DNA from: Polaribacter septentrionalilitoris | GTDB lineage: Bacteria; Bacteroidota; Bacteroidia; Flavobacteriales; Flavobacteriaceae | NCBI RefSeq assembly: GCF_009832745.1 | Contig: NZ_VRMJ01000033.1 | Location: 1-64,000, forward strand | DNA: 64,000 bases | Reading direction: 5' to 3' | Shown here: positions 1 through 14,654 of the stretch, one piece after another | How positions within the stretch are numbered: the first letter of the stretch is position 1 | Layout: every line of letters begins with the position of its first letter | Position numbers and translations under genes: made by a program | The notes under the pieces: model-generated | What the model saw: only the letters and a program-made list of their open reading frames with translations | The model's database searches: none | Told to the model about the DNA's origin: nothing

Positions 1-136
1 AGAACATCTTTTTACCATGAAGTACTTTGGCATAATAATCTACTTTAGTAGTTACTGATAAGTTGGATAAAAGAGCTTCTGGTATAACTCTCAATAATTG
101 ATTTACTGAAATTTTATGATCTTTAAAAACTGACAT
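1..136 (-). CDS. Probable transposase, N-terminal fragment (cut by window edge)
   Basis: An open frame starts at an ATG (complement 134-136) and runs off the left edge after 45 codons. The peptide begins MSVFKDHKISVNQLL and continues with a segment reading VIPEALLSNLS then KVDYYAKVLHGKKMF. The pattern of an N-terminal hydrophobic helix, then Ile-Pro, then a Tyr-Tyr-Lys segment resembles the N-terminal domain of IS4-type transposases common in Bacteroidota. That match is from memory of the family, and the DDE catalytic region lies outside the window. No terminal inverted repeat could be identified between 137 and 238. It could also be an unrelated short protein. Confidence 0.45.
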   Translation of the reverse strand, partial: MSVFKDHKISVNQLLRVIPEALLSNLSVTTKVDYYAKVLHGKKMF

Positions 137-238
137 AAATAGCTGATTATCAGATAAAAAGATACGTAAATATTATCAAATAAACAAGCTAAATAGTTGA
201 TTTTTAGTTTCTTAAATAGTAATTTATAAAACAAAAAA

Positions 239-260
239 GTCGGAAGAAAAATCTTCCGAC
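239..260 (-). terminator. Intrinsic terminator of the DUF3857/MORN operon
   Basis: Perfect 9-bp stem (GTCGGAAGA / TCTTCCGAC) around a 4-base loop, followed on the minus strand by six T residues (A-run at 233-238 on the plus strand). It lies about 45 bases downstream of the stop codon of the last gene of the minus-strand operon. The remaining sequence from 137 to 303 is AT-rich and shows nothing else recognisable. Confidence 0.85.
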
Positions 261-303
261 CATGACTAGCAATATGCTCCCTTTTTACTTTTTATAAGAT
301 GAC

Positions 304-2268
304 CTATTTTGGTTCTAACAACAACACAATTTTATTAAAATCGGCAGCACTATTAATTACGGTTCTGTATTCTTCATATACAGGAACTTCTATAATATTT
401 TCTCTGTAATGTTCATCTGCAGTTACAATAAGTTTGTTTCCTTCTAATTTGTAATACGATTTAAAAGAGAACAACTCTTTACCATCTTTAGCAAACGAAT
501 TGTCTATATTAATATCATCTAAATTGGTAATTTTATAGCCTTCTGGAATGTTAATGGTTAAGGTTCTGTAATAACTTCTATGAAACTGTTCTTCTAGAGG
601 TAATACTCTTTCTTTTTCTTGATACAATTGTACTTGTGGACCAATCAAATCGCCTAATTTAAATAAGTACTTTCTTCCTGCTTTTTCTACAAAAGCCTCT
701 GTCGTAAAATCTACTATAAATTGCAATGGTTTTACACCAAACAATTCAGATTCTCCATTTACTAATTTTCTTTCTTTAATCTCTAAATCTTTGGTGATGT
801 TTTCGATAAAATCATCTATCAACTCATCTCTTTTTTCACCTTGAATTAAGTGCATAAATGGCTGAATGTTCATGGCATAATAGCCATTAAAAGATCTATC
901 AAAATGAACATTGTTTTCATTTAAATTCTCTTTGTTAAAATCTACAGTTATATTCATGGTATCTACTGTATTTTTAACTTCTACAGGTTTGATGTATTTA
1001 ATTTTACTCACTGCAGATTTATAATCACCAATTACTACTTCTTTGATAAACAAACCATAATTATCCATCAAATAAGGCATTGGAAAACCATATCTTGTGC
1101 CAGAAGCATTTGGTGATAAGTATTTTTGAGATGATGTAAAATATAGTAAGAAATCAGTTAAAAAATTAGTTGCTTCAAAATCTGTATCGAACTTTATTTT
1201 CTTTCTATCACTGGTTAAAACTAACTCATGTTTAATGTTAAGTGTTCTTAAAACAGCAATGTATAGTTTAATAATTCCTGTTTCATTTGCTACTTTGTTT
1301 GTTAATATTTGTTCTAAATCTTGTAATTCTGCATTGTAAACATCTTGACTATATACGTTAGTTTTAATGTAAAAATCAACCTGTCTTATTATCGCTTCTT
1401 CATCTGCGTCTTCTGCTAATTTTAACTCTTTTATAAAGTCATTGATTAAAGTTTGGGTCTTTTTTGAATATTCTGGGTAATAAGAACCATATAAATTTTG
1501 TGCAATAGTATTGTAAGCAATAATTCCTGTGGCATTTGTTGCTGTATTTCCATCTAATTTATATACCAAGAATTTTTTTGAAGCTTCATAGGCTGCTTGG
1601 TATTCGCTTTCTAATTTTTCCATGTTTGTCACATGAAGTTTCCAATGTAATTTATCTGAAGTTACCGTATCTTTTTGAACTTCAGATAAACCATTAAAAC
1701 TTTTAAAAGCAAACACTAAATTACTTGGTGAGAATAGATCAAACTCTATTGTATTTTTGTTAAATGCAGCTTGTAAATTAACTCTTTTCCCTGTATAGGA
1801 TGGTGGTCTTTTTACCACATACATATACTCAATAAAACTTCCTTTTGTGATTCCTTCTAAAGCAAAATATTTATAAGTTCTACCTGATTCTTCATCTTTA
1901 GCCGTAAGTATTTTAGACTTATCTAGATTTACTAATTTTCCTTCTGTGGTAATTACTCTAGCTTTGTTTACTTGCAGTTCTGCTCTCGATGAAAAAGGCA
2001 AATAAATTTTGTTATATTCTTCTATAGCATCATCTGAGTTTAACCATAAAATTTTGTGTTCTAAGAAATACTCTACTAAATTGCGTTGTTCGAAAGCAAA
2101 TTCTGTTACTGTTTTTTCTTTTAAAGCAATTAAATCTTCTGTTGTTCCTTCTTTTACTTTATAATTTGGAGCTGCTTCCCAATCATAACTCTTAAAAAAT
2201 AATTCTTGAGAAATTGCAAATTGTGATATAAACAATAGGGCAATTAGTATTCTATTTTTGATGTTCAT
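304..2268 (-). CDS. Exported DUF3857 protein with degenerate transglutaminase-like region
   Basis: A 654-residue protein with an N-terminal signal peptide ending in Ala-Ile-Ser-Gln. The overall layout matches DUF3857 (roughly residues 50-220) followed by a transglutaminase-like fold (roughly 270-400) and a C-terminal beta-rich region. In the co-directional neighbour upstream the nucleophile sits in a Gly-Asp-Cys-Lys-Asp motif. Here the matching segment reads Ala-Asn-Glu-Thr-Gly, so the catalytic Cys is absent, and no obvious His follows. It is therefore probably a non-catalytic paralogue. The gene begins 6 bases after the neighbour's stop, so the two are surely co-transcribed. Function is unknown; a role in the periplasm or at the outer membrane is inferred from the signal peptide. 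Confidence 0.8.
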   Translation of the reverse strand: MNIKNRILIALLFISQFAISQELFFKSYDWEAAPNYKVKEGTTEDLIALKEKTVTEFAFEQRNLVEYFLEHKILWLNSDDAIEEYNKIYLPFSSRAELQVNKARVITTEGKLVNLDKSKILTAKDEESGRTYKYFALEGITKGSFIEYMYVVKRPPSYTGKRVNLQAAFNKNTIEFDLFSPSNLVFAFKSFNGLSEVQKDTVTSDKLHWKLHVTNMEKLESEYQAAYEASKKFLVYKLDGNTATNATGIIAYNTIAQNLYGSYYPEYSKKTQTLINDFIKELKLAEDADEEAIIRQVDFYIKTNVYSQDVYNAELQDLEQILTNKVANETGIIKLYIAVLRTLNIKHELVLTSDRKKIKFDTDFEATNFLTDFLLYFTSSQKYLSPNASGTRYGFPMPYLMDNYGLFIKEVVIGDYKSAVSKIKYIKPVEVKNTVDTMNITVDFNKENLNENNVHFDRSFNGYYAMNIQPFMHLIQGEKRDELIDDFIENITKDLEIKERKLVNGESELFGVKPLQFIVDFTTEAFVEKAGRKYLFKLGDLIGPQVQLYQEKERVLPLEEQFHRSYYRTLTINIPEGYKITNLDDINIDNSFAKDGKELFSFKSYYKLEGNKLIVTADEHYRENIIEVPVYEEYRTVINSAADFNKIVLLLEPK

Positions 2269-2274
2269 GTGTGT

Positions 2275-4221
2275 TTACTCTTTAATTAAGACTACAATTT
2301 CTTTATAGTTACGTTCTATTTTTTTAATCAACTTGTTTACTTCTTTTTGTTCTTCTACACTCAAGATCAAGAAATTTAGAATGATTTCATGGGTGTAAAT
2401 TACTTTATTTTCTTCTTTTTTATAGGTGATGTTACTTTCTAAAAACTCATTAGAAACAGACACATTTTCTGGCACATAATCTACTTTATAACCTTCAGGA
2501 ATTTCTAATGTAGTAGTGTATTTATGGTATCTTTTGTAATCGTATTCAATTGCATATTCACGTTTCTTATCCGTTTTAAAATAGGATAAATCTTTGTTTA
2601 GATTTAGGTTGATGTAGATTTCATTTCCTAATTTTTTTGAGTAATTTTTAATTTCAAAATCGTAATCAACTATAAAATCTTTATCATAATCATACTTATT
2701 GATTTCTTTAAAATTACCAATTAAAAACTTATTGTTTCCTTTGTTTAATTTTGCATTGTACAATTCTTGTAGTTTGATTTTTGTGTTTTCGTTTTCTAAA
2801 TCATGAAACAAATCAATTTTTGGATAGCCATCAATAGCTGTTGTTGATTTACCAATAACACTCCCACTTTTAATTTTAATAAGGGTATTATCTATAATCG
2901 AATTTACTTTCGCATCAACAACAGGTACTTTTTTAATCTTAAAGTCTTTACCATAAGAAACCAAAGCTTCTTTTCCTTGAATAAAAGAAGTTGGAATTCC
3001 GAATTTTATATACCGCCCAGTAGCATCTAAATAATACGTTCTTCCGTTTTTATCTTCGTAAGTAAGAATCATGTGATTGTCTACAACCGGAGTTGGAACT
3101 TCCTCATAAGTATAAGGTATTTTTCTGGTACCAATCCAAGTTAAATTTCCTTTAACTCCCGCAATTTCTAACATTCTATACAAAATGCTCGAATTATCTT
3201 TACAATCTCCATATTTTTTTCTAAAAACTTCATTTGATTCTCTTGGAATAAATCCGCCCAAAGCATATTCAAACGCAATATATTTTATGTTTTGTTGGGT
3301 CCAATAATATATAGCTTTTACTTTTTCTAAATCCGTTTTTTTATCTGCAGTAATTTTGTTGGTTAAAGCAATTAATTCTGGACTTGCAGGTTCTGTATTT
3401 ACATTTTCTACTAAAGAATAATACCAATCATACAAATTGGAAACTTTACCCAATAACTTTACTTCCTTTCTTTTTATTTTATATGAAGTGATGATTGGAA
3501 CAATGTGAGGTAAAAAAGTTTTAAAACTTGGTGTGTTTGCTTCAAAATCATATTCTTCTTGATTATTTAACTCCCAAGAATAAATAATTTTACCTCGTTT
3601 TTTGTCTTGTGAAAACTGAATTTTATCATCAGAAATGTTAAATTTTCTGAACTCTAAATTCACACCTTTATCGGCAATTATGGTTACTTTATTTTTTAAG
3701 ACAGGAAAATAATCACCAAAATAAAAAGGACTTAAAAATCTAGGGTTTTTAATATTTTGAGAATATTCTAACTTAGATTTTGAACCTTTTTGAAGATTAG
3801 GGTATACAAAGTTTAACGATTTTGAATCGTCATAAAAAGAATCATTGAGTTCATCTTTTTCTGTATACTTTTCGACCGCTGTTGATTCATATTTTTCACC
3901 ATTATAGGAAAGTGATTCTGCTGAAATTTTATCCAACTCAAAAAATGCAGAGAAATTCAATCTAGTTTTAGAATTATAGGTTGCAGATTCGTTCAAATAC
4001 AAATCTTCTTCTATAAACTTTTGGTTAATTTCTAACCCATCTTTATTAGCTTCTATAGTGATAATTGTTTCTTGATACAATCTTACTCTTGATGCTTCTG
4101 GGTATAATTTATTGTACTTTAAAAACTCAGGAGAATACTGAGCATTCAAGCTTGTAATTACTAATAAAAAAATGGCAATTAAACTATATCTATAAATTTT
4201 CTGTGTTGTATACATCTCCAT
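2275..4221 (-). CDS. Exported DUF3857/transglutaminase-like protein
   Basis: A 648-residue protein with a signal peptide (hydrophobic stretch near residues 12-25, ending Leu-Asn-Ala-Gln). DUF3857 occupies about residues 45-230 and a transglutaminase-like domain about 280-405. The expected catalytic triad is visible: Cys340 in Tyr-Gly-Asp-Cys-Lys-Asp, His383 in Asp-Asn-His-Met, and Asp399 in Tyr-Leu-Asp-Ala-Thr-Gly. Such proteins may cleave or cross-link peptide bonds in the periplasm; the substrate is unknown. The start overlaps the end of the upstream TPR/MORN gene by 32 bases (26 if the second Met at 4215 is used), which indicates translational coupling. Confidence 0.85.
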   Translation of the reverse strand: MEMYTTQKIYRYSLIAIFLLVITSLNAQYSPEFLKYNKLYPEASRVRLYQETIITIEANKDGLEINQKFIEEDLYLNESATYNSKTRLNFSAFFELDKISAESLSYNGEKYESTAVEKYTEKDELNDSFYDDSKSLNFVYPNLQKGSKSKLEYSQNIKNPRFLSPFYFGDYFPVLKNKVTIIADKGVNLEFRKFNISDDKIQFSQDKKRGKIIYSWELNNQEEYDFEANTPSFKTFLPHIVPIITSYKIKRKEVKLLGKVSNLYDWYYSLVENVNTEPASPELIALTNKITADKKTDLEKVKAIYYWTQQNIKYIAFEYALGGFIPRESNEVFRKKYGDCKDNSSILYRMLEIAGVKGNLTWIGTRKIPYTYEEVPTPVVDNHMILTYEDKNGRTYYLDATGRYIKFGIPTSFIQGKEALVSYGKDFKIKKVPVVDAKVNSIIDNTLIKIKSGSVIGKSTTAIDGYPKIDLFHDLENENTKIKLQELYNAKLNKGNNKFLIGNFKEINKYDYDKDFIVDYDFEIKNYSKKLGNEIYINLNLNKDLSYFKTDKKREYAIEYDYKRYHKYTTTLEIPEGYKVDYVPENVSVSNEFLESNITYKKEENKVIYTHEIILNFLILSVEEQKEVNKLIKKIERNYKEIVVLIKE

Positions 4222-7200
4222 TAAAATACTCCTTTTTCTTAATTAGTTTTCCTTCTTCATTGTAAAAATATGATATTCCATGTTTTAAATTATTCGAAAA
4301 CATAATTTCTTCCTTTCTATTACCATTTTTATAATAAAAAACTTCTTTTCCTTGTTTTTCTCCATGATAATATGTGACCTCTCTCTTTAGGGTACCGTCT
4401 TCGAAATATTCTTTTTTAGCCCCATGATAATTGCCGTTTACATAATTCATTTCTTCTTGTAAATTACCATTATAAAAATACGATTTGTATTGATTTACCA
4501 AATCTCCGTATTTAAACTCCATGGTTTTAGACGGCTTTCCATTATCAAAAAAACTCTCAATTTTACCACTTTCTCTATTTAAAGGTAACATAGCAATTTC
4601 TGTTCCATTTTTATCTAAATAGCTATACCCTATTAATTCTCCATGGTTATAAAAACGAACCAACTGTAATTTTCCAGAAATGTCATAAAATTCTTTACGT
4701 CCATGGTTTTTACCTTGATTGTATTCTGTTTCAGTTTCTTTGATACCATTTTCATAATACCTTACACTTTTTCCTACTTGTAAGTCATTTTCATAAGTAA
4801 ACTCTCCTTCAATTATCCCATCCTTGTAATAGTTAATAGTTTTTCCTTGGGTTTTTCCACTATTATAGGTTGATGTACTTTCTACTTTTCCATTTTCATA
4901 ATACCAGGTCCAAAGTCCGTGCTGTTCACCATTTAGATAATTTCCCGTTATTTTTTTATTCCCATTAAAATAGAAAACTTGGTATTTACCGTGTTTTACA
5001 CCATTTACATAAGAAATTTTAGTGTTTATTTTTGTATTAAAATGTTTAGATGTAACAATGTATTCATTTTTTTGTGAGGTATATTTTATTTTCTCAAATA
5101 CTTTTTCATCTTTTTGATAAATGGTTTCTAAAATTAAATCTCCAAATTTATATAAGTATAAAGATTCTAATTTACCATCTACACCATAATTTTTTTGTTG
5201 CCCATTAAGCTGTCCTTTATGAAAGAAATTAATTGCTTTAAGTGTTCCGTCTAAATAGTAATACCTCCACTCTCCATGCTGATTATCTTCTTTATACCAA
5301 CCTTGAGTACTCATTTGTTTATTGGGATGATACGCTACATAATACCCTTCTGCTACTCCGTCTTTGTATTGAGTTTTGTATTCTATATTTCCGTTTTTAT
5401 AGTAGGAAAAATGCTCTCCAATAATGTTATTTTCTTTATAGTTTCCTTTATTTATTAATACTCCATTATTGGAGTAAAATTTCCATTCTCCAACTTTTCC
5501 TCCTGAGATATCGTATAAACCTTCTGCGGTTTTATTTCCTTTGGGAGAAAAGCCTTGATAATAAAACTCACCACCTTTCTTTTTACCTTCTTTTAAAATA
5601 GAGCCATTTTTATTATAAAATTTATACGCTACAATTTCTCCTCTTTTGTACACATATTCATAGAATAATTTCCCATCTGTATCGAAGTATCTATACAAAT
5701 CATCTAACTTACCTTTTTTGTAAGAGTATTCTGCTTGAAGTTTTCCGTTAGTATAATACATTTTCCAATCTCCTTCATAAGATCCCTCTAAACTCTGGCC
5801 AATTTCACTTGGTTTACCATTTGAATGATACTGTTTAAAGCTTCCATGTACTTCTCCATTAACATACTCTATTTCTGATGATATGGACTTATTATAGTGA
5901 TATACGGTTTCAAGACCTTCTTTTTTCCCTGATATATAAGTTGATTTTGCATAGAGATTTCCGTTGGCATAATATTCGAAAACATCACCATCAATTTCTC
6001 CTTTCTTATATGGTATTTCAAACTCAATTAACTGTTCTCCAACTTTAAAAAAAGATTTATAATCACCATCTAAGAGTCCGGACTTGAAATATTTTCTCTC
6101 AATTAATGCTCCTTTGTTATTGAAGTACTCATATAAATCATTTAGTGAGTCATTTTTATAAATAGAATTTATATGTTTTTTTCCATTGCTGTAAAACATA
6201 AAGTTTTTTCCGTTAAGCAATCCTTCTTTGTACTCTGCAGTTTCTTTTATGTTGTTTTTATTATCAAGCCAAGTCCATTTTCCAATTCTTTTTCCATTTT
6301 TATCAAAATTTCCTTTCGCAAATTTTTGACCCGACTCATTATAAAATTCCCATATACCAACTGGTTTTTCATCTTCTAATTTTCCTATTGCATTAACATA
6401 AGAATCACTATATTGAAAAGTAACATCTTGCTCTTTACCATTAAACTGAATGGTGTTTTTTGCCACTATGCTTTTCCATTTGGTTTTTAAATCATCTAAA
6501 AATGCAATAATATTGTCTGTTTTTTTTTGAATTACTTTTTTATACTTTTGATTTTCTATAGCATAGGTTAAAGTATAAATGAAATCATCAAACTTATTAT
6601 TTTTAATTATCCATTGATAAAACGAAACATAGGTTTTATCCCAAAAACCTCCATTTCCTTTAAAATCTTTTAACTGCGTTATCATTGCATGATTTTGTTT
6701 TGTTAATGGAACTTTTATAGGGTTTTTAATTTTGTAATTGGTGTTAAGAGCAATTTTGCTGGTTAGGATTAAATCTATTTCCTCAAAACTATCATCTGCA
6801 TCTTCTAATTGTAATTTAGGATTTCTTTTGTTAGGGTTCTTAACTCTTACAACATTGTTTAAAGATTTTAGAGTTTCAAAAACTCCAGCAGCATCTGGCT
6901 CTAGAAGAATAAACATATTAAAGCACATTAATGCTTGTGCAAACCTTTCTTGCTTGTAAAAAATATTACCAATTCGTAAATGAGGATTTCTATAGGTAGG
7001 ATTATAGGTTATTGCTTTTTTATATGCATTAATTGCTTCGTTCAATTTCCCTTTTGTTTCTAAAAGATAACCTTTATTGTACCATAGTAAATAGTTTTTA
7101 GGATATAACTTTATCCCCTCGTTATAGTTTTCTAATGCTTCATCATCTCTCTTTAAGTTTGTTAGCGCAACACCTTTATTGGTATAGAAAAATGCTTTGG

Positions 7201-7471
7201 AATGGTTATGATTCCCTTGAATTCCTTGATTTGTAATTTCTAATGCTTCTTTGTACTTTTTTAATTGTAATAAATAATAAGATTTTGATGTTAATAGAGA
7301 AAAGTACGCAGAATCATTCTTATTGATTTTGTTGATAATCTTTAAGATTTTTTCTGGTTGGCTTTCTTTTTTAACTTTTTCTGTTATTTCAGTATAATCT
7401 ACAAACGGTATTTTTTCTTGTGAGTAGCAAAAATTTGCCACAAAGAGCATAGCAATAATTATTTTTTTCAT
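4190..7471 (-). CDS. Exported TPR and MORN-variant repeat protein
   Basis: The frame is open from 7519, but the ATG at 7471 is preferred: it gives a clean signal peptide (MKKIIIAMLFVANFCYSQ), whereas the longer form begins inside the terminator at 7485-7513. The mature protein of about 1075 residues has tetratricopeptide repeats near residues 35-205. From roughly residue 370 to the end it carries more than twenty MORN-variant repeats of the type (Tyr)-Tyr-x-x-Asn-Gly-Lys followed by a short beta turn (YwqK-like family). These repeats form extended beta ladders used for protein or lipid contact; no catalytic motif was seen. It is the first gene of an operon with two DUF3857 proteins, suggesting a shared envelope function. 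The substrate or partner is not known. Confidence 0.85.
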   Translation of the reverse strand: MKKIIIAMLFVANFCYSQEKIPFVDYTEITEKVKKESQPEKILKIINKINKNDSAYFSLLTSKSYYLLQLKKYKEALEITNQGIQGNHNHSKAFFYTNKGVALTNLKRDDEALENYNEGIKLYPKNYLLWYNKGYLLETKGKLNEAINAYKKAITYNPTYRNPHLRIGNIFYKQERFAQALMCFNMFILLEPDAAGVFETLKSLNNVVRVKNPNKRNPKLQLEDADDSFEEIDLILTSKIALNTNYKIKNPIKVPLTKQNHAMITQLKDFKGNGGFWDKTYVSFYQWIIKNNKFDDFIYTLTYAIENQKYKKVIQKKTDNIIAFLDDLKTKWKSIVAKNTIQFNGKEQDVTFQYSDSYVNAIGKLEDEKPVGIWEFYNESGQKFAKGNFDKNGKRIGKWTWLDNKNNIKETAEYKEGLLNGKNFMFYSNGKKHINSIYKNDSLNDLYEYFNNKGALIERKYFKSGLLDGDYKSFFKVGEQLIEFEIPYKKGEIDGDVFEYYANGNLYAKSTYISGKKEGLETVYHYNKSISSEIEYVNGEVHGSFKQYHSNGKPSEIGQSLEGSYEGDWKMYYTNGKLQAEYSYKKGKLDDLYRYFDTDGKLFYEYVYKRGEIVAYKFYNKNGSILKEGKKKGGEFYYQGFSPKGNKTAEGLYDISGGKVGEWKFYSNNGVLINKGNYKENNIIGEHFSYYKNGNIEYKTQYKDGVAEGYYVAYHPNKQMSTQGWYKEDNQHGEWRYYYLDGTLKAINFFHKGQLNGQQKNYGVDGKLESLYLYKFGDLILETIYQKDEKVFEKIKYTSQKNEYIVTSKHFNTKINTKISYVNGVKHGKYQVFYFNGNKKITGNYLNGEQHGLWTWYYENGKVESTSTYNSGKTQGKTINYYKDGIIEGEFTYENDLQVGKSVRYYENGIKETETEYNQGKNHGRKEFYDISGKLQLVRFYNHGELIGYSYLDKNGTEIAMLPLNRESGKIESFFDNGKPSKTMEFKYGDLVNQYKSYFYNGNLQEEMNYVNGNYHGAKKEYFEDGTLKREVTYYHGEKQGKEVFYYKNGNRKEEIMFSNNLKHGISYFYNEEGKLIKKKEYFNGDVYNTENL

Positions 7472-7484
7472 AAAATCTAAAATA

Positions 7485-7513
7485 AAAAAAGAGAGAAAGA
7501 TGCTCTCTTTTTT
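7485..7513 (-). terminator. Intrinsic terminator after the sulfur/HMA operon
   Basis: Perfect 11-bp inverted repeat (AAAAAAGAGAG / CTCTCTTTTTT) with a 7-base loop, lying 9 bases past the stop of the HMA protein gene. On the minus strand it reads as a hairpin followed by a T-run. It separates the sulfur-handling genes from the MORN operon, whose promoter would then have to lie in the few bases before 7471 or within this region. Confidence 0.8.
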
Positions 7514-7522
7514 GAACATTTT

Positions 7523-7792
7523 TTAAGCGTCTATTCTTCCTACAGCACAACTTACAAAAGATTTTGCTTTGTGTACTAGAGTGTTTTCATCTCCTACTTC
7601 TGGGTATCCTAATTTAGACAACTTTATCTTAACAGCATCTAAAGTTGAGGTTTCTGAAGAAATAGTAACTATTGAATTTTCTACATCAATTGCTACATCT
7701 TCTACACCTTGTATAGAAGAGATTCCTTTTTTTATAGTTGCAGCACAACCACCACATTTTAAATTTTCTATTTTAATATTTGTTTTCATCAT
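7523..7792 (-). CDS. Heavy-metal-associated (HMA) domain protein
   Basis: A small soluble metal-binding protein. The core carries the HMA signature Leu-Lys-Cys-Gly-Gly-Cys-Ala-Ala-Thr-Ile near the N-terminus, with the beta-alpha-beta-beta-alpha-beta pattern of copper chaperones such as CopZ. A further Cys lies near the C-terminus (Phe-Val-Ser-Cys-Ala-Val-Gly). The frame opens at 7813, but the adjacent ATG codons at 7792 and 7789 give the usual HMA start (MMKTNIKIEN) and avoid the 19-base overlap with the rhodanese gene. A Cys-Gly-Gly-Cys pair usually binds Cu(I). Its place at the end of a sulfur operon suggests a link between copper and reactive sulfur, but that is inference. Confidence 0.8.
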   Translation of the reverse strand: MMKTNIKIENLKCGGCAATIKKGISSIQGVEDVAIDVENSIVTISSETSTLDAVKIKLSKLGYPEVGDENTLVHKAKSFVSCAVGRIDA

Positions 7793-7794
7793 AT

Positions 7795-8160
7795 TTAGTT
7801 TTCTGTTTTCCACTTTGTATAACCTCCTAAAACATTATACACTATAAATCCTTTTTCTTTTAATATTACAGCAGCTTTGCCACTTCTATTTCCACTTCTA
7901 CAAAACAAATACACTGGTTTTGTTTTGTCTAACTTGTTGGTTGCTTTCATTGCAAAATCTGTGTCAAAATAATTTACAAAAAGTGCAGACTCGATACTTC
8001 CTTGTTCTATTTCTATTGGAGTTCTTACATCTAGAAGTTGTATTTTATCTTTACTGAGCAACTCTTTTAATTCTTGTGTTGTTATAGTATTTATATCTTG
8101 TTTTTTAGTACAATTTATAAACAAACAGCCTGAAAAAAATAAATAAATTAAATGTTTCAT
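7795..8160 (-). CDS. Rhodanese-like lipoprotein
   Basis: A 121-residue protein with a lipoprotein signal peptide; the lipobox Phe-Ile-Asn-Cys puts the lipidated Cys at residue 17. One rhodanese domain follows (residues about 25-120) with the active-site loop Leu-Phe-Cys-Arg-Ser-Gly-Asn-Arg-Ser, catalytic Cys87. It would carry a persulfide for sulfane-sulfur transfer on the periplasmic side of a membrane. It starts 4 bases downstream of the persulfide dioxygenase-like gene, so the two are likely an operon. The family is certain; the physiological sulfur donor and acceptor are not. Confidence 0.9.
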   Translation of the reverse strand: MKHLIYLFFSGCLFINCTKKQDINTITTQELKELLSKDKIQLLDVRTPIEIEQGSIESALFVNYFDTDFAMKATNKLDKTKPVYLFCRSGNRSGKAAVILKEKGFIVYNVLGGYTKWKTEN

Positions 8161-8164
8161 AAAG

Positions 8165-9571
8165 TTATTTTAATGTTGATGGACAAACAGCATCTGTTCT
8201 CTCAATAGTAGTATTTCTTATTGCTGCGTAACCACCAGCAACATCAATTACATTATGAAATCCACGCGCTTTTAAAATAGAAGCTGCAATTACTGAACGA
8301 TATCCACCTGCACAATGCACATAAAAATTTTCTTTTTTAGGAAATTCTGAAATATGATCATTTAAGAAATCTAATGGAGTACTTTCTGCTACTTTAATAT
8401 GTTCGCTTGCATATTCTCCTGGTTTTCTTACGTCAAAAACAGGATTTTTCTCTTTAATTTTTTGTTCTAAAATATCTGCTGATACTGAGGTTAGAGTATC
8501 TATTTCTTTATCTGATTTTTTCCATGATTCAAAACTTCCGCCTAAATACCCTAAAACATTATCAAATCCAACTCTAGACAAACGTGTAATGGTATCTTCT
8601 TCTTTTCCTTGAGGAGCCACTAATAAAATAGGTTGCTTAATGTCTTTGATCAAAGCACCCACCCAAGGTGCAAATCCTCCATCAATACCGATAAAAATAG
8701 ATTGAGGGATGAATCCTTTTACAAATTCCGTTTGATGACGAACATCTAAAATTACAGCACCTGTTTCATTCGCAATAATTTCAAAATCGTTAACAGATAA
8801 GGGTTTTGCACTGTTTTTAATAACATCATCTACATTTTTGTATCCCTCTTTATTCAATTTTACATTTAGAGGAAAATATGCTGGTGGAGGTAATAAACCA
8901 TCTGTAACTTCATTTACAAATTCTTCTTTGGTCATATCTGCTCTTAGCGCATAGTTGGTTTTCTTCTGCTCACCAATTGTACCAACAGTTTCTTTACTTA
9001 AATTTTTTCCGCAAGCAGATCCTGCTCCATGAGCTGGATATACAATTACATCATCTGTTAAGGTCATGACTTTGTTTCGTAAACTATCATATAAAAAACC
9101 TGCTAAATCTTTTTCTGTAATATCTCCTTTTTGTGCTAAATCTGGACGACCAACATCACCTAAAAATAAAGTGTCTCCACTAAACAAAGCATGGTCTTTT
9201 CCGTTTTCATCTTTTAAAAGAAAACATGAACTTTCCATGGTATGCCCTGGAGTGTGTAATACTGTAATGGTAATATCTCCAACATTAAAAACCTGATTAT
9301 TTTCTGCTATAATGGCATCGAAATTTGTTTTTGCTGAGGGTCCGTATACTATTTTAGCTCCTGTTTTTTCAGCTAAAGTTACATGTCCGCTAACAAAATC
9401 TGCATGAAAATGAGTTTCAAAAATATATTTAATTTTAGCATTATCTTTTACTGCCTTGTCTATATAATCTTGTACTTCTCTTAATGGATCTACAATTGCT
9501 ACTTCTCCATTACTTTCTATGTAATACGCTCCTTGTGCTAAACACCCTGTGTAAATTTGTTCTATTATCAT
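8165..9571 (-). CDS. Metallo-beta-lactamase/double-rhodanese protein, likely persulfide dioxygenase
   Basis: A 468-residue cytoplasmic protein. The N-terminal metallo-beta-lactamase domain (about 1-240) has Thr-His-Phe-His-Ala-Asp (His54, His56, Asp58), His110 in Thr-Pro-Gly-His, and Asp133 in Ser-Gly-Asp-Thr. The usual sixth motif residue, His, is Phe59, which fits a single-iron site as in ETHE1-type persulfide dioxygenases. Two rhodanese domains follow. The first (about 260-355) has no Cys at the active-site position (Val-Ala-Pro-Gln-Gly), and the second (about 370-460) has Cys420 in Val-His-Cys-Ala-Gly-Gly-Tyr-Arg. The domain order resembles staphylococcal CstB, which turns persulfides into thiosulfate. 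Glyoxalase II activity is a less likely alternative. Confidence 0.85.
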   Translation of the reverse strand: MIIEQIYTGCLAQGAYYIESNGEVAIVDPLREVQDYIDKAVKDNAKIKYIFETHFHADFVSGHVTLAEKTGAKIVYGPSAKTNFDAIIAENNQVFNVGDITITVLHTPGHTMESSCFLLKDENGKDHALFSGDTLFLGDVGRPDLAQKGDITEKDLAGFLYDSLRNKVMTLTDDVIVYPAHGAGSACGKNLSKETVGTIGEQKKTNYALRADMTKEEFVNEVTDGLLPPPAYFPLNVKLNKEGYKNVDDVIKNSAKPLSVNDFEIIANETGAVILDVRHQTEFVKGFIPQSIFIGIDGGFAPWVGALIKDIKQPILLVAPQGKEEDTITRLSRVGFDNVLGYLGGSFESWKKSDKEIDTLTSVSADILEQKIKEKNPVFDVRKPGEYASEHIKVAESTPLDFLNDHISEFPKKENFYVHCAGGYRSVIAASILKARGFHNVIDVAGGYAAIRNTTIERTDAVCPSTLK

Positions 9572-9615
9572 GATCTCTTACTTATTTAACGAGTTAAAAT
9601 AACATTGAAAATACA

Positions 9616-9638
9616 TGATTATCAATGATATTTATCAT
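9616..9638. promoter_or_regulatory. Paired small palindromes upstream of the persulfide dioxygenase gene
   Basis: Two short palindromes lie side by side in the 68-base gap between the SulP stop and the dioxygenase start: TGATTATCA (9616-9624) and ATGATATTTATCAT (9625-9638, 6-bp arms, 2-base spacer). They could be an operator or a weak hairpin. AT-rich DNA makes such palindromes common, so the support is limited. Confidence 0.25.
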
Positions 9639-9639
9639 C

Positions 9640-11367
9640 TTAATGGTATGCTTGATGAATATATTTTGCATACTTTTCTTGTTCTTCTCTATCTCCTGTT
9701 TTATAAAATTTTACTGCGTCATTGGCACGCATAAAAAAGTGATTGATATCTATAATAGATAACACACCACATTTAAATAAATCGTCTCTTACAGGTCCTT
9801 TTACACCTGCAAAATAGAAGGTAACCCCTCTTTTTTTATAATATTTAATTCGTTCTTTTAAAATTTCTAAACCTGTACTATCTACTCTATTGATACTTTC
9901 TGCGTCTAATACAATGAGTTTTAATTGATTTCCTTTTTTTGATGCCATTTCATCTAACTTATCTCTAAAATATCCTGAATTGGCATAAAATAATTGTGCG
10001 TCAAATCTAAAAATTAGAATATCATTTTCTATAATTACTTCTTCAAAACGACTTTTATTTCTGTAAAAATTTGAGTTGGGTACCTTCCCTAACTCTGCCA
10101 CATAAGGCCTTGATGTTCTAAAAATTAAAACGATTAATGATAAACCTACACCAACAATTATTCCATATTCTATGCCAAAAATTAAAGTGGCTATAAAAGT
10201 GGCTAACATTAACCAGAAGTCTAATTTATTTGCTTTCCATAAAAATCGAGCTTCTTTAAAATTCACCAATCCAAAAACAGCAACAATAATAATGGCCGCT
10301 AAAACTGATTTGGGCAAATGGTAAAATAACGGAGTTAAAAACAACAGTGTAAAAACAACCATTACCACTGAAACTAAAGCTGCCATTCCTGTTTTTGCTC
10401 CACTTTCTTGATTGATTGCAGAACGTGAAAAACTTGATGTGCTTGGATAAGCTTTAAACAAAGAACCCACCATATTTGCCAAACCTAACGCAATTAATTC
10501 TTGGTTAGGTCTAATTCTATATTCATCTTGTTTTGCTTCTAACGATTTTCCAATAGAAATAGTTTCTAAATACCCAACCATTACTAAAGTTAGCGCAATT
10601 GGTAATAATTCTTTGAATAAATCAATATCAAATTCTGGTATTCCAAAAGTTGGTAAACCTGATGGAATATCTTTTACGATATCTACATCCCCAAAAGATT
10701 TTCCAAAATATTTCATGATTACAATACCGATAATTACTACAATTAGTGCATTCGGAATCTTTTTATTGATTCTTCTAAAAACGATAATTACAATGACAGA
10801 AATCATTCCAATAACTGTTGTATGATAATTAAAATCTGTAATTTGAAGCCAAATATCTTCTAAAACATACTGAATTTGATCACTCTGAATAAAATCGACA
10901 CCTAATAAGTTCCGAAATTGATTGACGCCAATAATTAATGCAACTGCAGATGTAAAACCGGTAATTACAGGTTTTGATAAAAAGTTTACAATGAAACCTA
11001 AACTAAAAACCCCCATAACAAATTGAATAGTACCTACCATCATTGCTAAAATAATTGCAATGGCAATATAACTGTCTGAACCTGCTAAAGCTAAAGTAGA
11101 AACTCCAGTGGCTACAATTAAAGAGTCCATTGCAACAGGACCAATAGCTACTTGTCTTGATGAACCAAAAACAGCATACATTATTTGTGGAACTAAAGCG
11201 CAATACAAACCATAAATTGGTGGCAAACCAGCAATTAGTGCGTAGGCAATTCCTTGTGGAATTAAAATAATACCAACTGTAATACCTGCTACTAAATCAC
11301 CTTTAAACAAAGATGTATTATAGTTGGGTAACCACTCTAAAATTGGTATAATTTTTTTAATATTCAT
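9640..11367 (-). CDS. SulP-family anion transporter with STAS domain
   Basis: A 575-residue inner-membrane protein with 12-14 predicted membrane segments (about residues 20-430) and a C-terminal cytoplasmic STAS domain (about 445-560, with Asp-Ala-Glu-Ser-Ile-Asn-Arg-Val-Asp-Ser-Thr-Gly). The SulP signature Pro-Gly-Ile-Ala-Tyr-Ala type segment appears as Pro-Gln-Gly-Ile-Ala-Tyr-Ala near residue 38. SulP proteins move sulfate, bicarbonate or related anions by symport or exchange. Its position ahead of the persulfide dioxygenase suggests sulfate, sulfite or thiosulfate transport linked to sulfide detoxification. Bicarbonate uptake cannot be excluded from sequence alone. Confidence 0.9.
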   Translation of the reverse strand: MNIKKIIPILEWLPNYNTSLFKGDLVAGITVGIILIPQGIAYALIAGLPPIYGLYCALVPQIMYAVFGSSRQVAIGPVAMDSLIVATGVSTLALAGSDSYIAIAIILAMMVGTIQFVMGVFSLGFIVNFLSKPVITGFTSAVALIIGVNQFRNLLGVDFIQSDQIQYVLEDIWLQITDFNYHTTVIGMISVIVIIVFRRINKKIPNALIVVIIGIVIMKYFGKSFGDVDIVKDIPSGLPTFGIPEFDIDLFKELLPIALTLVMVGYLETISIGKSLEAKQDEYRIRPNQELIALGLANMVGSLFKAYPSTSSFSRSAINQESGAKTGMAALVSVVMVVFTLLFLTPLFYHLPKSVLAAIIIVAVFGLVNFKEARFLWKANKLDFWLMLATFIATLIFGIEYGIIVGVGLSLIVLIFRTSRPYVAELGKVPNSNFYRNKSRFEEVIIENDILIFRFDAQLFYANSGYFRDKLDEMASKKGNQLKLIVLDAESINRVDSTGLEILKERIKYYKKRGVTFYFAGVKGPVRDDLFKCGVLSIIDINHFFMRANDAVKFYKTGDREEQEKYAKYIHQAYH

Positions 11368-11411
11368 TTTTCAGCAATAGCTTTACACTTAAATTTTAAT
11401 GTTTATAGTTT

Positions 11412-12434
11412 TTAAAACAATTCTCCTTGATTTCTTCCTTTTATTCTTCCTAAATGTTTGTATGCCAAATCTGTAACTTCTCTTCCTCTTGGAGTTCTCA
11501 TAATAAACCCTTGTTGAATTAAAAACGGTTCGTAAACTTCTTCAATAGTTTCTGTATTTTCCGATACTGCTGTAGCTATGGTTCCTAAACCAACTGGTCC
11601 ACCTTTAAATTTATCGATGATAGTTGCTAAAATTTTATTATCCATTTCATCTAAACCATGGGCATCTACATTTAAGGCTTTTAACGCATATTTAGAAATC
11701 TCTATGGTAATTGTTCCATCTCCTTTTATTTGAGCAAAATCACGAACTCTTCTTAACAATGCATTTGCAATTCTAGGTGTTCCTCTACTTCTTCCTGCAA
11801 TTTCAATGGCAGCTTCCATAGAAATTGGTACATTTAAAATATGTGCACTTCTTTGAATAATTGTAGTTAACAATTCCGTTGAGTAATAATGCAAACGACT
11901 ACTGATACCAAATCTTGCTCTCATAGGAGCTGTTAGTAATCCTGAACGTGTAGTTGCACCAATTAAAGTAAATGGTTCTAAATTGATTTGAACTGTTCTG
12001 GCATTTGGACCAGATTCAATCATAATATCAATTTTGTAATCTTCCATTGCAGAGTAGAGATACTCTTCTACAATTGGACTTAATCGATGAATTTCATCAA
12101 TAAACAGCACATCACGTTCGTCTAAATTGGTTAATAAACCAGCTAAATCACCTGGTTTATCTAATACAGGTCCTGATGTAACTTTAATACCAACTTGCAA
12201 TTCATTTGCCAAAATATGTGCCAAGGTTGTCTTACCTAAACCAGGAGGTCCATGGAAAAGTGTATGATCCAAAGCTTCTCCCCTTTGGTTTGCAGCCTCA
12301 ACAAAAACTTTTAAGTTTTCTATAGCTTGGTCTTGTCCTGTAAAATCATCAAAAGATAATGGTCTTAGTTTTCTTTCTACATCTAATTCTTCTGATGAAA
12401 AATTGGTGTTTTCAGGATTTAGATTTTCGTTCAT
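11412..12434 (-). CDS. ruvB: Holliday junction branch-migration helicase RuvB
   Basis: A 340-residue AAA+ ATPase of normal family length. Visible motifs are Walker A Gly-Pro-Pro-Gly-Leu-Gly-Lys-Thr-Thr, Walker B Leu-Phe-Ile-Asp-Glu-Ile-His-Arg, sensor 1 Gly-Ala-Thr-Thr-Arg, and the Arg-Ala-Arg-Phe-Gly arginine-finger region, then the winged-helix domain ending in Thr-Pro-Arg-Gly-Arg. RuvB forms the hexameric motor that drives branch migration with RuvA; RuvC resolves the junction. Neither ruvA nor ruvC is in the window, as is usual in Bacteroidota. A promoter-like TATCTTTG lies only a few bases before the start codon. Confidence 0.97.
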
Positions 12435-12439
12435 AACTA

Positions 12440-12447
12440 CAAAGATA
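12440..12447 (-). promoter_or_regulatory. Candidate -7 box for ruvB
   Basis: TATCTTTG on the minus strand matches the Bacteroidota -7 consensus TAnnTTTG and ends 5 bases before the ruvB ATG, giving a very short or leaderless transcript. No clear TTG was found at the -33 position, so support is partial. Confidence 0.35.
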
Positions 12448-12499
12448 AGAGATTTTGAATGAGATTAAGTGTACTCTTTGTTACAGAAAATTATAGAAT

Positions 12500-13366
12500 C
12501 TAGCTATATATTCCTACTTCTATAAATGCTTTTTTAGAGGCTTCTGTTACATCGCCTTCAAACAGTTTTTCATAGCGCGCATCTAGCACATAAGCTTTTA
12601 CCAACACTTTTGTAGCTGCATGATCATCAAAGTGATCGAAAAATAAAATAGTTACAGGTTTATCTATGTTTAAATACCTTGAGGTAATGGCAGCTTCTTC
12701 GACAATTTTTCGAATCTGTGTAACATCTACATTAATAGGCAACCATAAATTAACAACTACCATACAGTCTAAAGCACCAGAATTTGCATTAGATATACTA
12801 TCAGAAATAATTGCTGAATTAGGAATGGTCACTGTATTATCATCCAAGGTATTTACAATGGTATTTCGTAAACCAATATTAACCACTTCTCCATAATTTC
12901 CTTTGATATTAATTCTGTCTCCAATTTGAAAAGGTCTATCTAAAATGATGAGTAAACCACCAAAAATATTTTTAACAATATCTTGCAGCGCAAATCCTAA
13001 TGCCAATGCAGATGATCCCATTAGTGCATAAATGGCTTCTGCAGATGGATTAAAAAGGGTAATAATTAGCGTATAAATGGCCAAAGTCCACACTAAAATC
13101 TTAACAATTGGCTGTAATCTTAAAATTTTTAAACGGTGTCTGTTAAAGTTTTTTACCAAGTTTTTAAAAAACCAATCTAACAGTTTCATTAAGCCCCAAG
13201 TAAGGATAATTACAACTACAATGGTTAAAATTTTAGTAATAGAAATAACTTCTGTTGCGTTAGAAATGGTATTTTCTACATTATTTTTTACATCGTTTAC
13301 AGTTTTTTCTTGAGAAAAAATAGAGAAGGATGCTAAGAAAAACAATAAGTTTATCATTTTTTTCAT
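12500..13366 (-). CDS. MscS-family small-conductance mechanosensitive channel
   Basis: A 288-residue protein. It begins with a signal-like segment ending Phe-Ser-Gln, then three membrane helices between about residues 38 and 150. The pore-lining TM3 reads Gly-Ser-Ser-Ala-Leu-Ala-Leu-Gly-Phe-Ala-Leu-Gln-Asp, the Gly/Ala-rich MscS pattern, and the beta domain follows with Gly-Asp-Arg-Ile-Asn-Ile. The channel releases solutes on osmotic downshock. The stop is at 12500 and the start lies 1 base after the stop of the upstream P-loop-like gene, so the two are one operon. The possible functional link to that partner is the unusual feature here. Confidence 0.93.
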   Translation of the reverse strand: MKKMINLLFFLASFSIFSQEKTVNDVKNNVENTISNATEVISITKILTIVVVIILTWGLMKLLDWFFKNLVKNFNRHRLKILRLQPIVKILVWTLAIYTLIITLFNPSAEAIYALMGSSALALGFALQDIVKNIFGGLLIILDRPFQIGDRINIKGNYGEVVNIGLRNTIVNTLDDNTVTIPNSAIISDSISNANSGALDCMVVVNLWLPINVDVTQIRKIVEEAAITSRYLNIDKPVTILFFDHFDDHAATKVLVKAYVLDARYEKLFEGDVTEASKKAFIEVGIYS

Positions 13367-13367
13367 A

Positions 13368-14552
13368 TTATCTAAATTTTCTATTTAATCGTTCTCTTAA
13401 CAAATCTTTTAAAATATCTAAATACATTAAATTGACTCTATATTGTGTTTTACCATTTACGGTTGATGTTGGTCTAATTAGCTCACGTTCTAACAGCTTT
13501 TCTATACTTAACCTACTTTGTCTGTCTGAATTTCTTAAAACAATATTCAATTCTTTAATAGACAATGATCTATGCTGAAAAATAGCTTCTAAAATAAAGA
13601 GTTCATTTAATGATAAATCATCGACTCTTTTGATGTGAATTGGTTTTATAAATACAGTTTTTAATTTAACATTATACGCTGAATTTCTTGCATATAAAAT
13701 AGCCTTGGAGATGTTTCCTTTTGCAAAAGCGGACATGTTTTTAAAGAATAGATCTTCTAAAATATTTTGTCTTTCTTCTGTAGAAGCTTTTTTTAATTGT
13801 TTTTCAATCTTTTTAGAAATCTTATTAGGCTTTAAATACACCATTTGATAACCTTGATTTCTATCTAAAATTTCTACTTTTAATTGCTTTTTTGAAATGG
13901 GTTCTAAATGGATGATTGATGGGAAATGTGAAGCAAAAAACTTAACTCTATTTAAATAATAAAATGAGTATTTATTGATAGATATAATCCAGTAGATTTT
14001 ATTTTTTGTAGCGTGTAAAAACAACAAAAAATCTTCTAATAAATCAAAGCCTTTTATCCTTCTGATAAACAATCTCTCTATATTCTCTAAAATAATTACT
14101 TCATCTTCTAGAGATGCATTGATGAACTTTTCTAAATCTTTTAGGTTTTTAAATTCTTCTGATATTCTTAAAACATTGGTTAATAAACCTATAAGTTTTT
14201 TATATGAATCTATGGATTGATTGGTTTCTAAAATTTTAGCATTAGGGTAAATATAGGTACTAGCGTGTAATAAAGAGGTTCCTCCTTCTCCTGGTTCATC
14301 TACTACTAAGAGTGGAGACTTTACAATTTTCCAATTCTCATACGCTTTTTCTAAGCTTTTAAACTCTTCTTCACGATTTTTAAGAAATTCTTTATTTTGA
14401 ATTGGATATAATGTAAAACGCTCCAGATACTCTTCTGGTAACTGAATTTTTTCTTCTGCTTCTTCAATTACAGAAACTTGTTTCTTTTCTTCAATATCAA
14501 AAAGTTTGTACAAAAAACTTTTACTGTATTGAATCTTTTCTAAAAGAGCCAT
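13368..14552 (-). CDS. AAA/STAND-like protein with degenerate P-loop, MscS partner
   Basis: A 394-residue soluble protein. At residues 84-94 it has a P-loop-like segment Asp-Glu-Pro-Gly-Glu-Gly-Gly-Thr-Ser, in which Gly91 stands where the catalytic Lys of Walker A is expected. A Walker B-like strand follows (Val-Ile-Ile-Leu-Glu-Asn-Ile-Glu, about 152-159), then a sensor-like strand (Ile-Ile-Ser-Ile-Asn). The C-terminal 70 residues look like a winged helix (Leu-Ser-Leu-Asn-Glu-Leu onward). This resembles STAND or ORC-type ATPases but probably without normal hydrolysis. It directly precedes the MscS gene with 1 base between. Its function is unknown; gating control or stress signalling is only a suggestion. 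Confidence 0.65.
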   Translation of the reverse strand: MALLEKIQYSKSFLYKLFDIEEKKQVSVIEEAEEKIQLPEEYLERFTLYPIQNKEFLKNREEEFKSLEKAYENWKIVKSPLLVVDEPGEGGTSLLHASTYIYPNAKILETNQSIDSYKKLIGLLTNVLRISEEFKNLKDLEKFINASLEDEVIILENIERLFIRRIKGFDLLEDFLLFLHATKNKIYWIISINKYSFYYLNRVKFFASHFPSIIHLEPISKKQLKVEILDRNQGYQMVYLKPNKISKKIEKQLKKASTEERQNILEDLFFKNMSAFAKGNISKAILYARNSAYNVKLKTVFIKPIHIKRVDDLSLNELFILEAIFQHRSLSIKELNIVLRNSDRQSRLSIEKLLERELIRPTSTVNGKTQYRVNLMYLDILKDLLRERLNRKFR

Positions 14553-14607
14553 TTTTGATATTTTGTTAGTAAGCTAATATAACAAATCAAAATGACTCTT
14601 TTAAACT

Positions 14608-14638
14608 AAAAGACCTTTCCAAATTGGAAAGGTCTTTT
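14608..14638 (-). terminator. Terminator of the act-cox operon
   Basis: A perfect inverted repeat with 15-bp arms (AAAAGACCTTTCCAA / TTGGAAAGGTCTTTT) and a single central base, so the real loop is about 5 bases. It lies 17 bases after the coxA stop codon, with T-rich sequence following on the minus strand. It is the strongest hairpin in the window. Confidence 0.88.
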
Positions 14639-14654
14639 TAATAAGTTTTTTTAC

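Follow-up and report, generated by a model that had tools for sequence, protein, structure and literature searches.

What is the work of three exported proteins that are encoded side by side at the end of a contig from the marine bacterium Polaribacter septentrionalilitoris? The window, the whole stretch of DNA analysed here (64,000 nucleotides), is the first 64 kb of contig NZ_VRMJ01000033.1. The three genes, all confirmed on the minus strand, lie near the contig end, which falls 303 nucleotides (nt) beyond the stop codon of the last gene of the operon. The first encodes a TPR and MORN_2 protein of 1093 amino acids, here called the giant (4190–7471). The second encodes TG (2275–4221; 648 amino acids), which has DUF3857, a transglutaminase core and DUF3858, with the triad C340–H383–D399 present, and the third encodes PS (304–2268; 654 amino acids), which has DUF3857 and a degenerate transglutaminase core from which the catalytic residues are gone. 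We give roughly even credence to the view that the trio is a self-contained periplasmic module, in which a transglutaminase-fold enzyme, a pseudoenzyme partner and a scaffold of fixed length act on envelope proteins.

The conserved order of the three genes is more than chance, because it is kept in 37 of the 39 genomes that carry the giant. We searched for the giant at E ≤ 1e-60, a threshold that short forms could escape, and in the genus 11 of 58 genomes have it; the corresponding counts are 16 of 199 for the family (198 genera), 11 of 246 for the order and 6 of 395 for the phylum. The genome of the window is part of every count and the samples overlap; in all, 39 different genomes carry the giant. 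The giant, TG and PS are contiguous, in the same order and on the same strand, in 37 of them (window included), one of which has a contig that begins inside the giant (G408). In a further genome, the giant and TG are at one contig end and PS is near the end of another (G073). Polaribacter sp. Hel1_85 is among the named strains with the trio (locus L034). A preliminary description of this locus would have lost its ground if the genes were not syntenic elsewhere; their order is retained in seven other families, four of the same order (f2, f7, f13 and f14) and three of the same class (f17, f18 and f23). The giants of these 13 distant loci are 24–41% identical to that of the window, and the three loci checked by Pfam have MORN_2 and TPR in the giant, DUF3857 and Transglut_core in TG and DUF3857 in PS. 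This recurrence in distant relatives points to an undescribed bacterial envelope machine.

Two loci depart from the usual layout. At L080 (G114:C66, 5512–16783) the order is TG–PS, giant, TG–PS, with a pair on either side of the giant, and of the two PS copies the first has diverged further (34% versus 43%). At L081 (G206, 8340–12693) the trio is decayed: the giant is a C-terminal open reading frame (ORF) of 159 amino acids, TG is in two frames and PS is nearly full length. The decay could be an assembly error or real.

TG and PS appear to be an enzyme–pseudoenzyme pair. In Pfam, TG matches DUF3857 (PF12969; 3e-12), Transglut_core (PF01841; 1e-6) and DUF3858 (PF12970; 1e-6), and PS matches DUF3857 (1e-11). 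Both pass the DUF3857 cut-off of 24.6 bits (45.5 for TG and 47.4 for PS), as do the TG and PS of three distant loci. TG also meets the Transglut_core cut-off (29.2 versus 23 bits) and has the Cys–His–Asp triad of the transglutaminase-like superfamily, whereas PS is below threshold (17.2 bits versus 23). DUF3858 is a TG feature only, at 29.3 bits versus 27 in the window; it falls short of the cut-off in L119 and L122, and L111 lacks it. PS of L122 reaches 24.5 bits for Transglut_core, although its catalytic residues are gone. We aligned 60 sequences of TG and 62 of PS, taken from trio loci, distant loci and loci with the pair alone, after dropping sequences shorter than 600 amino acids (which removed L081); because loci L034–L041 and the G genomes may share strains, these sequence counts may hold duplicates (the 39-genome count excludes L034–L041). 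At the alignment positions of C340, H383 and D399, all 60 TG sequences have C, H and D. Among the 62 PS sequences, none has the Cys, none has the His and 6 have D in the Asp column, and PS was accordingly rejected as an active transglutaminase.

Despite this loss, PS is clearly, by its profile, a full-length homologue of TG: deep profiles of the two match at 99.8% (E 1.9e-29) over 616 columns, with 16% identity. TG is a member of the transglutaminase-like superfamily on the grounds of both its profile match and its triad; PS is one by descent rather than by catalysis. In a midpoint-rooted tree, PS and TG form two groups (support 1.0 and 0.64), and the duplication therefore appears to be older than the spread of the trio. 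Conservation is also distributed differently. In TG it is highest in the core (mean 0.71, with 31 columns at 95% or more, versus 0.54–0.55 outside); in PS the core has a mean of 0.55 (7 such columns) and the N- and C-terminal parts 0.60 (17 and 26 columns). PS is thus conserved outside the core, unlike TG, a pattern as for a protein retained for binding. Erythrocyte band 4.2, an inactive transglutaminase homologue in a membrane complex, is likewise a dead homologue kept for binding, an analogy only and not a sign of relatedness. At E ≤ 0.001, the genome of the window yields two DUF3857 genes, both of them in this operon. The preliminary description had spoken of two transglutaminase-fold proteins; the two are not equivalent, as PS is without the catalytic residues.

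The solved structure that best matches the PS model is 3kd4 (E 2.7e-14), followed by 4xz7, named a transglutaminase (TGase), at rank 2 (E 8e-4); 3isr is at rank 24 (E 0.06). Both 3kd4 and 3isr were named putative proteases by their depositors. The closest known proteins are those with DUF3857, Transglut_core and DUF3858, such as 3kd4 itself (BDI_1141 from Parabacteroides), and TG has all three domains. What differs here is that there are two paralogues, one of them dead, in a conserved tandem with a repeat giant, whereas 3kd4 is a 'putative protease' by name.

The third member is a repeat protein with a length that seems to be fixed. The giant exceeds the MORN_2 (PF07661) cut-off by a wide measure (134.2 versus 29.6 bits; 5e-41) and also matches TPR_1 (2e-19); its closest named relatives are from Polaribacter, at 64–67% identity. 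We predicted its structure with AlphaFold2 from a 9-row alignment (mean predicted local distance difference test score, pLDDT, 76.4). A signal peptide is followed by a TPR domain (residues ~26–210; ten-residue means of 53–88), a low-confidence linker (below 50 at residues 207–278) with helices to ~336, and a predicted beta-hairpin solenoid (~341–1092). Residues 341–1092 form a run of 65 short strands, with ten-residue means of 57–94 that are mostly above 75. Glycine recurs every 24 residues and tyrosine every 12 and 24, and we count ~31 repeats of 24 amino acids from residue 358. A Foldseek search has crystal structures of MORN1 among its matches, with that from Toxoplasma (6t69) at rank 25 (E 3e-8; template-modelling (TM) score of 0.61 by target length). 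Locally, we take the fold to be MORN-like; for the overall shape, a rod is the simplest reading. If strands are spaced by 0.48 nm, the ~62 strands of the solenoid would extend for about 30 nm. The extended repeat scaffold of more than 1000 residues in the preliminary description is in keeping with this prediction.

The segment aligned to residues 358–1092 is 732–737 residues long in all 30 orthologues compared (giant orthologues alone), the register never slips by more than 6 residues relative to the giant of the window, and pairwise identity falls as low as 22%. Among 32 closer orthologues, the solenoid segment has deletions of 1–2 residues at four places and insertions at three places, each in one sequence. 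By this measure, no 24-residue repeat appears to have been gained or lost. The length alignment left out 9 of the 39 giants, owing to contig ends or the limit of 30. Eight of the nine are encoded by ORFs of 1088–1100 amino acids, and the other is truncated at a contig end.

The predicted antiparallel beta-hairpin solenoid resembles the MORN-repeat rods of MORN1 from Toxoplasma gondii, Plasmodium falciparum and Trypanosoma brucei, and of junctophilin. Unlike these proteins, the giant is bacterial, has variant 24-residue MORN_2 repeats, an export signal and a TPR head, and has ~31 repeats compared with 15 in T. brucei MORN1. One study describes extended tail-to-tail dimers of MORN1 and negative data for lipid-membrane binding (PMC7725318). 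MORN_2-type repeats are shared with bacterial proteins such as YwqK and the MORN2 proteins of Fusobacterium nucleatum. The latter were identified in outer membrane vesicles and their functions are called not validated by the authors; the available part of that paper makes no link to a transglutaminase pair (PMC10434195).

All three proteins have Sec signal peptides with glutamine at position +1. Across 30 genomes and three proteins, scanned with a simple script rather than a trained predictor, the hydrophobic core exceeds the cut-off of the script in 85 of 90 sequences (29, 27 and 29 of 30 for the giant, TG and PS), and [ASG]-Q follows the hydrophobic stretch in 87 of 90 (29, 30 and 28 of 30). 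The three misses are a giant for which the script window fell elsewhere, a PS with an ORF start that was called too late and a PS with T-Q. The description of the trio as signal-peptide proteins is supported by sequence. Glutamine directly after the signal peptide is the 'Q-rule' for signal peptidase I substrates of Bacteroidetes (PMC5837995; PMC10653852). A simple pattern for the lipobox cysteine matched none of the 90 sequences, and lipoproteins were ruled out by this pattern. Among NCBIfam matches at E up to 1, the three window proteins have no C-terminal sorting domain of the type IX secretion system, and we rejected them as cargo of that system. With export signals but no such sorting domain, the three are most likely to remain in the periplasm.

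The three genes also seem to have evolved together. Among the giant, TG and PS, tree distances correlate at r 0.965–0.977, more closely than with RuvB (0.87–0.90; 30 genomes); given RuvB, the partial correlations are 0.84–0.89. The trees share 13–17 of 27 splits with one another and 8–11 of 27 with RuvB. These figures are most simply read as those of a single linked unit, inherited for the most part vertically and lost many times. The correlations do not prove contact, since linkage by itself would raise them too.

From these features, we hypothesize how the module could work. TG would be a Cys–His–Asp enzyme that forms or cleaves amide bonds in envelope proteins, and PS an ancient, catalytically dead paralogue retained as a subunit that regulates TG or serves as its adaptor. 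The giant would be an accessory scaffold of fixed length, the TPR head of which binds protein and the beta-solenoid of which positions the pair, or its substrate, in the envelope. The physical complex, the periplasmic residence, the amide chemistry and the role of scaffold are what we infer. The chemistry of TG may be cross-linking or proteolysis: the solved relatives of the PS model have been named both putative protease (3kd4 and 3isr) and TGase (4xz7). In a bolder form that we think unlikely, the giant would be a molecular ruler of ~30 nm, with a number of repeats (~31) that was fixed early in the history of the class. It would span the periplasm or line it and keep the TG–PS pair at a set distance, as part of an undescribed envelope cross-linking or processing machine of Bacteroidota. 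The kinds of domain are known, and we found no description of their combination in one trio in the open literature: by title and abstract, none of the matches listed joins MORN repeats with transglutaminase in bacteria, and DUF3857, in the part of that literature available, turns up in a single paper, as a neighbour of lolA in Xanthomonas. The conserved trio of an enzyme, its dead twin and a constant-length rod gives a concrete hypothesis for an unassigned Pfam family.

Several results weigh against a module of this kind. The predicted TM score (pTM) of the giant model is only 0.44, and its global shape is therefore uncertain; ranked by E-value, its best Foldseek matches are shells of the Rhs and teneurin kind (lowest E 6e-20, but TM 0.09). 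The model of PS is of low quality (mean pLDDT 49.7), and only its best match was used. A sequence search of solved structures found no match for TG alone and no relevant match for PS, and the TG profile reached 3kd4 at E 0.14 only. With 9-row profiles, PS and TG match weakly (25%). The genes also occur apart. Three genomes of the same genus (G034, G037 and G038) have TG and PS at the locus of the window without a giant (none at 1e-60). One genome (G041, 76% complete) has a full-length giant without an adjoining pair, with no TG genome-wide at 1e-10 (PS was not searched there). Two others (G192 and G112; loci L096 and L097; 1.4–1.5 Mb, 84–86% complete) have PS without an adjoining TG, for which no match was found in either genome at 1e-40. 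That a dead enzyme should be kept alone in these two is odd.

The losses of the giant are informative in their own right. In the three same-genus genomes, TG and PS are 68.5–73.4% identical to those of the window and group with the G040 trio (support 1.0), and the triad is kept in TG and lost in PS. The stretch before TG resembles the leader of the giant and then its last codons, so the giant was probably lost there. At L163, L164 and L166, where the giant is lost, the called TG ORF starts with TTG, shortly after a hairpin like that at 7513–7485 of the window. We found these cases in a check of empty sites within the genus, 47 genomes of which have no giant: the flanking gene was sought in 24 of these genomes, and 16 loci were fetched, of which 3 have TG and PS and 13 have no parts of the trio at that place (a count for the locus only, as TG and PS elsewhere in these genomes were not searched). 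A separate lineage, 16 of the 199 family genomes, has relatives of TG (33–39% identity) and PS (30–34%) and no giant at 1e-60; a profile search for the giant at 1e-30, run without a positive control, also found none in these 16. TG and PS are adjacent in all 14 of the loci fetched from this lineage, in a different and itself conserved neighbourhood, and the TG and PS trees disagree on whether the lineage lost the giant or never had one. The giant is thus not the obligatory member that the preliminary description implied, and the trio as an inseparable unit is overturned by the three same-genus genomes. Losses both ways show that the parts are not strictly interdependent. On sequence grounds, the TG–PS pair appears to be the core of the module, with the giant as an accessory. 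Genomes in which the giant is gone and the pair is kept are ready-made comparisons.

Other explanations can be set against the periplasmic module. A doubtful reading, although worth considering, makes TG a cysteine protease by which surface proteins are released or matured, with PS as its inhibitor or regulator and the giant as a docking factor. LapG is a cysteine protease within the transglutaminase-like superfamily, and the putative proteases among the solved relatives include both the best match and the one at rank 24, but names given by depositors are not tested functions, the second-ranked match is named a TGase, and no adhesin or protease recurs as a fourth gene beside the operon.

A less probable possibility is that the giant is the substrate, a lysine-rich repeat rod that TG, helped by PS, cross-links or trims into an envelope meshwork. 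The giant has 144 K and 40 Q among its 1093 residues, it is first in the gene order and overlaps TG, and the triad is present in all 46 TG sequences of the trio set. However, many lysines are expected in an AT-rich genome regardless, a polymer subunit needs no fixed number of repeats, and the three same-genus genomes keep a triad-bearing TG after the loss of the giant.

It is improbable that three exported proteins are merely co-transcribed, with no joint function. The partial losses in both directions would fit, but the order is kept in seven other families at 24–41% identity, where the clustered loci share no other gene across families.

Least probable of all is a conflict system (toxin–immunity, anti-phage or anti-predator) in which MORN_2 supplies the antitoxin or immunity function. 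In its favour, annotation as a YwqK antitoxin is common among MORN_2 proteins and the distribution in the genus is patchy (11 of 58 genomes). Against it, the Pfam matches include no toxin domain, the one PADLOC match is to a generic TPR model, every part has an export signal, and the constant length and trees that track RuvB are unlike arms-race genes. That PADLOC match was at 3e-4 for the giant, with none for TG or PS, and a known anti-phage defence system was rejected for want of a match to a system component. A YwqJK toxin–antitoxin module, which has an adjacent toxin gene and a cytoplasmic antitoxin, was also rejected, as the neighbours of the giant are TG, PS and an upstream HMA gene and signal peptides are present.

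The layout of the operon is compact. The 3′ end of the giant overlaps the 5′ end of TG by 32 nt (4190–4221, minus strand), an overlap that is identical in several relatives and smaller or absent in others and that suggests translational coupling. TG and PS are separated by a gap of 6 nt, so that of the 'overlapping genes' in the preliminary description only the first junction overlaps. A terminator-like hairpin (7485–7513, minus strand) lies between the upstream HMA gene and the start codon of the giant; a second (238–261, minus strand), ~40 nt past the PS stop codon, is the probable end of the operon. With these hairpins on either side, the trio looks like one transcription unit and is probably co-transcribed. 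Because the first hairpin sits between the two candidate start codons, the giant most likely starts at 7471 rather than at the first ATG of its ORF at 7519. Each hairpin alone is weak evidence, because the scanned stretch has four compared with 2.2 (standard deviation 1.8) in shuffles; their weight lies in their positions. Positions 1–16000 of the window contain no RNA elements at gathering score.

Outside the trio, neighbours differ by clade, and we set the genomic neighbourhood aside as a clue to function. Clustering of 45 trio loci (32 near and 13 distant) found no fourth gene common across clades, with the exception of an ABC-ATPase-like cluster to which one of the distant loci contributes. 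Sulfur-type genes are found beside the trio in the genus of the window, ABC-transporter-like and UPF0102 genes in others, and different genes again in the pair lineage; except for Pfam matches, these names are our reading of protein starts. In the window, the upstream genes (7523–11367, minus strand) encode an HMA-domain protein, a rhodanese, a metallo-beta-lactamase and rhodanese fusion, which we take to be persulfide dioxygenase-like, and a SulP transporter. This sulfur-type cluster is largely retained at the locus across the genus, even where the trio is absent. On the other side, after the hairpin that follows PS, an ORF at 1–136 (minus strand) runs off the contig end; its start presumably resembles an insertion-element transposase, which, if so, would explain the contig break.

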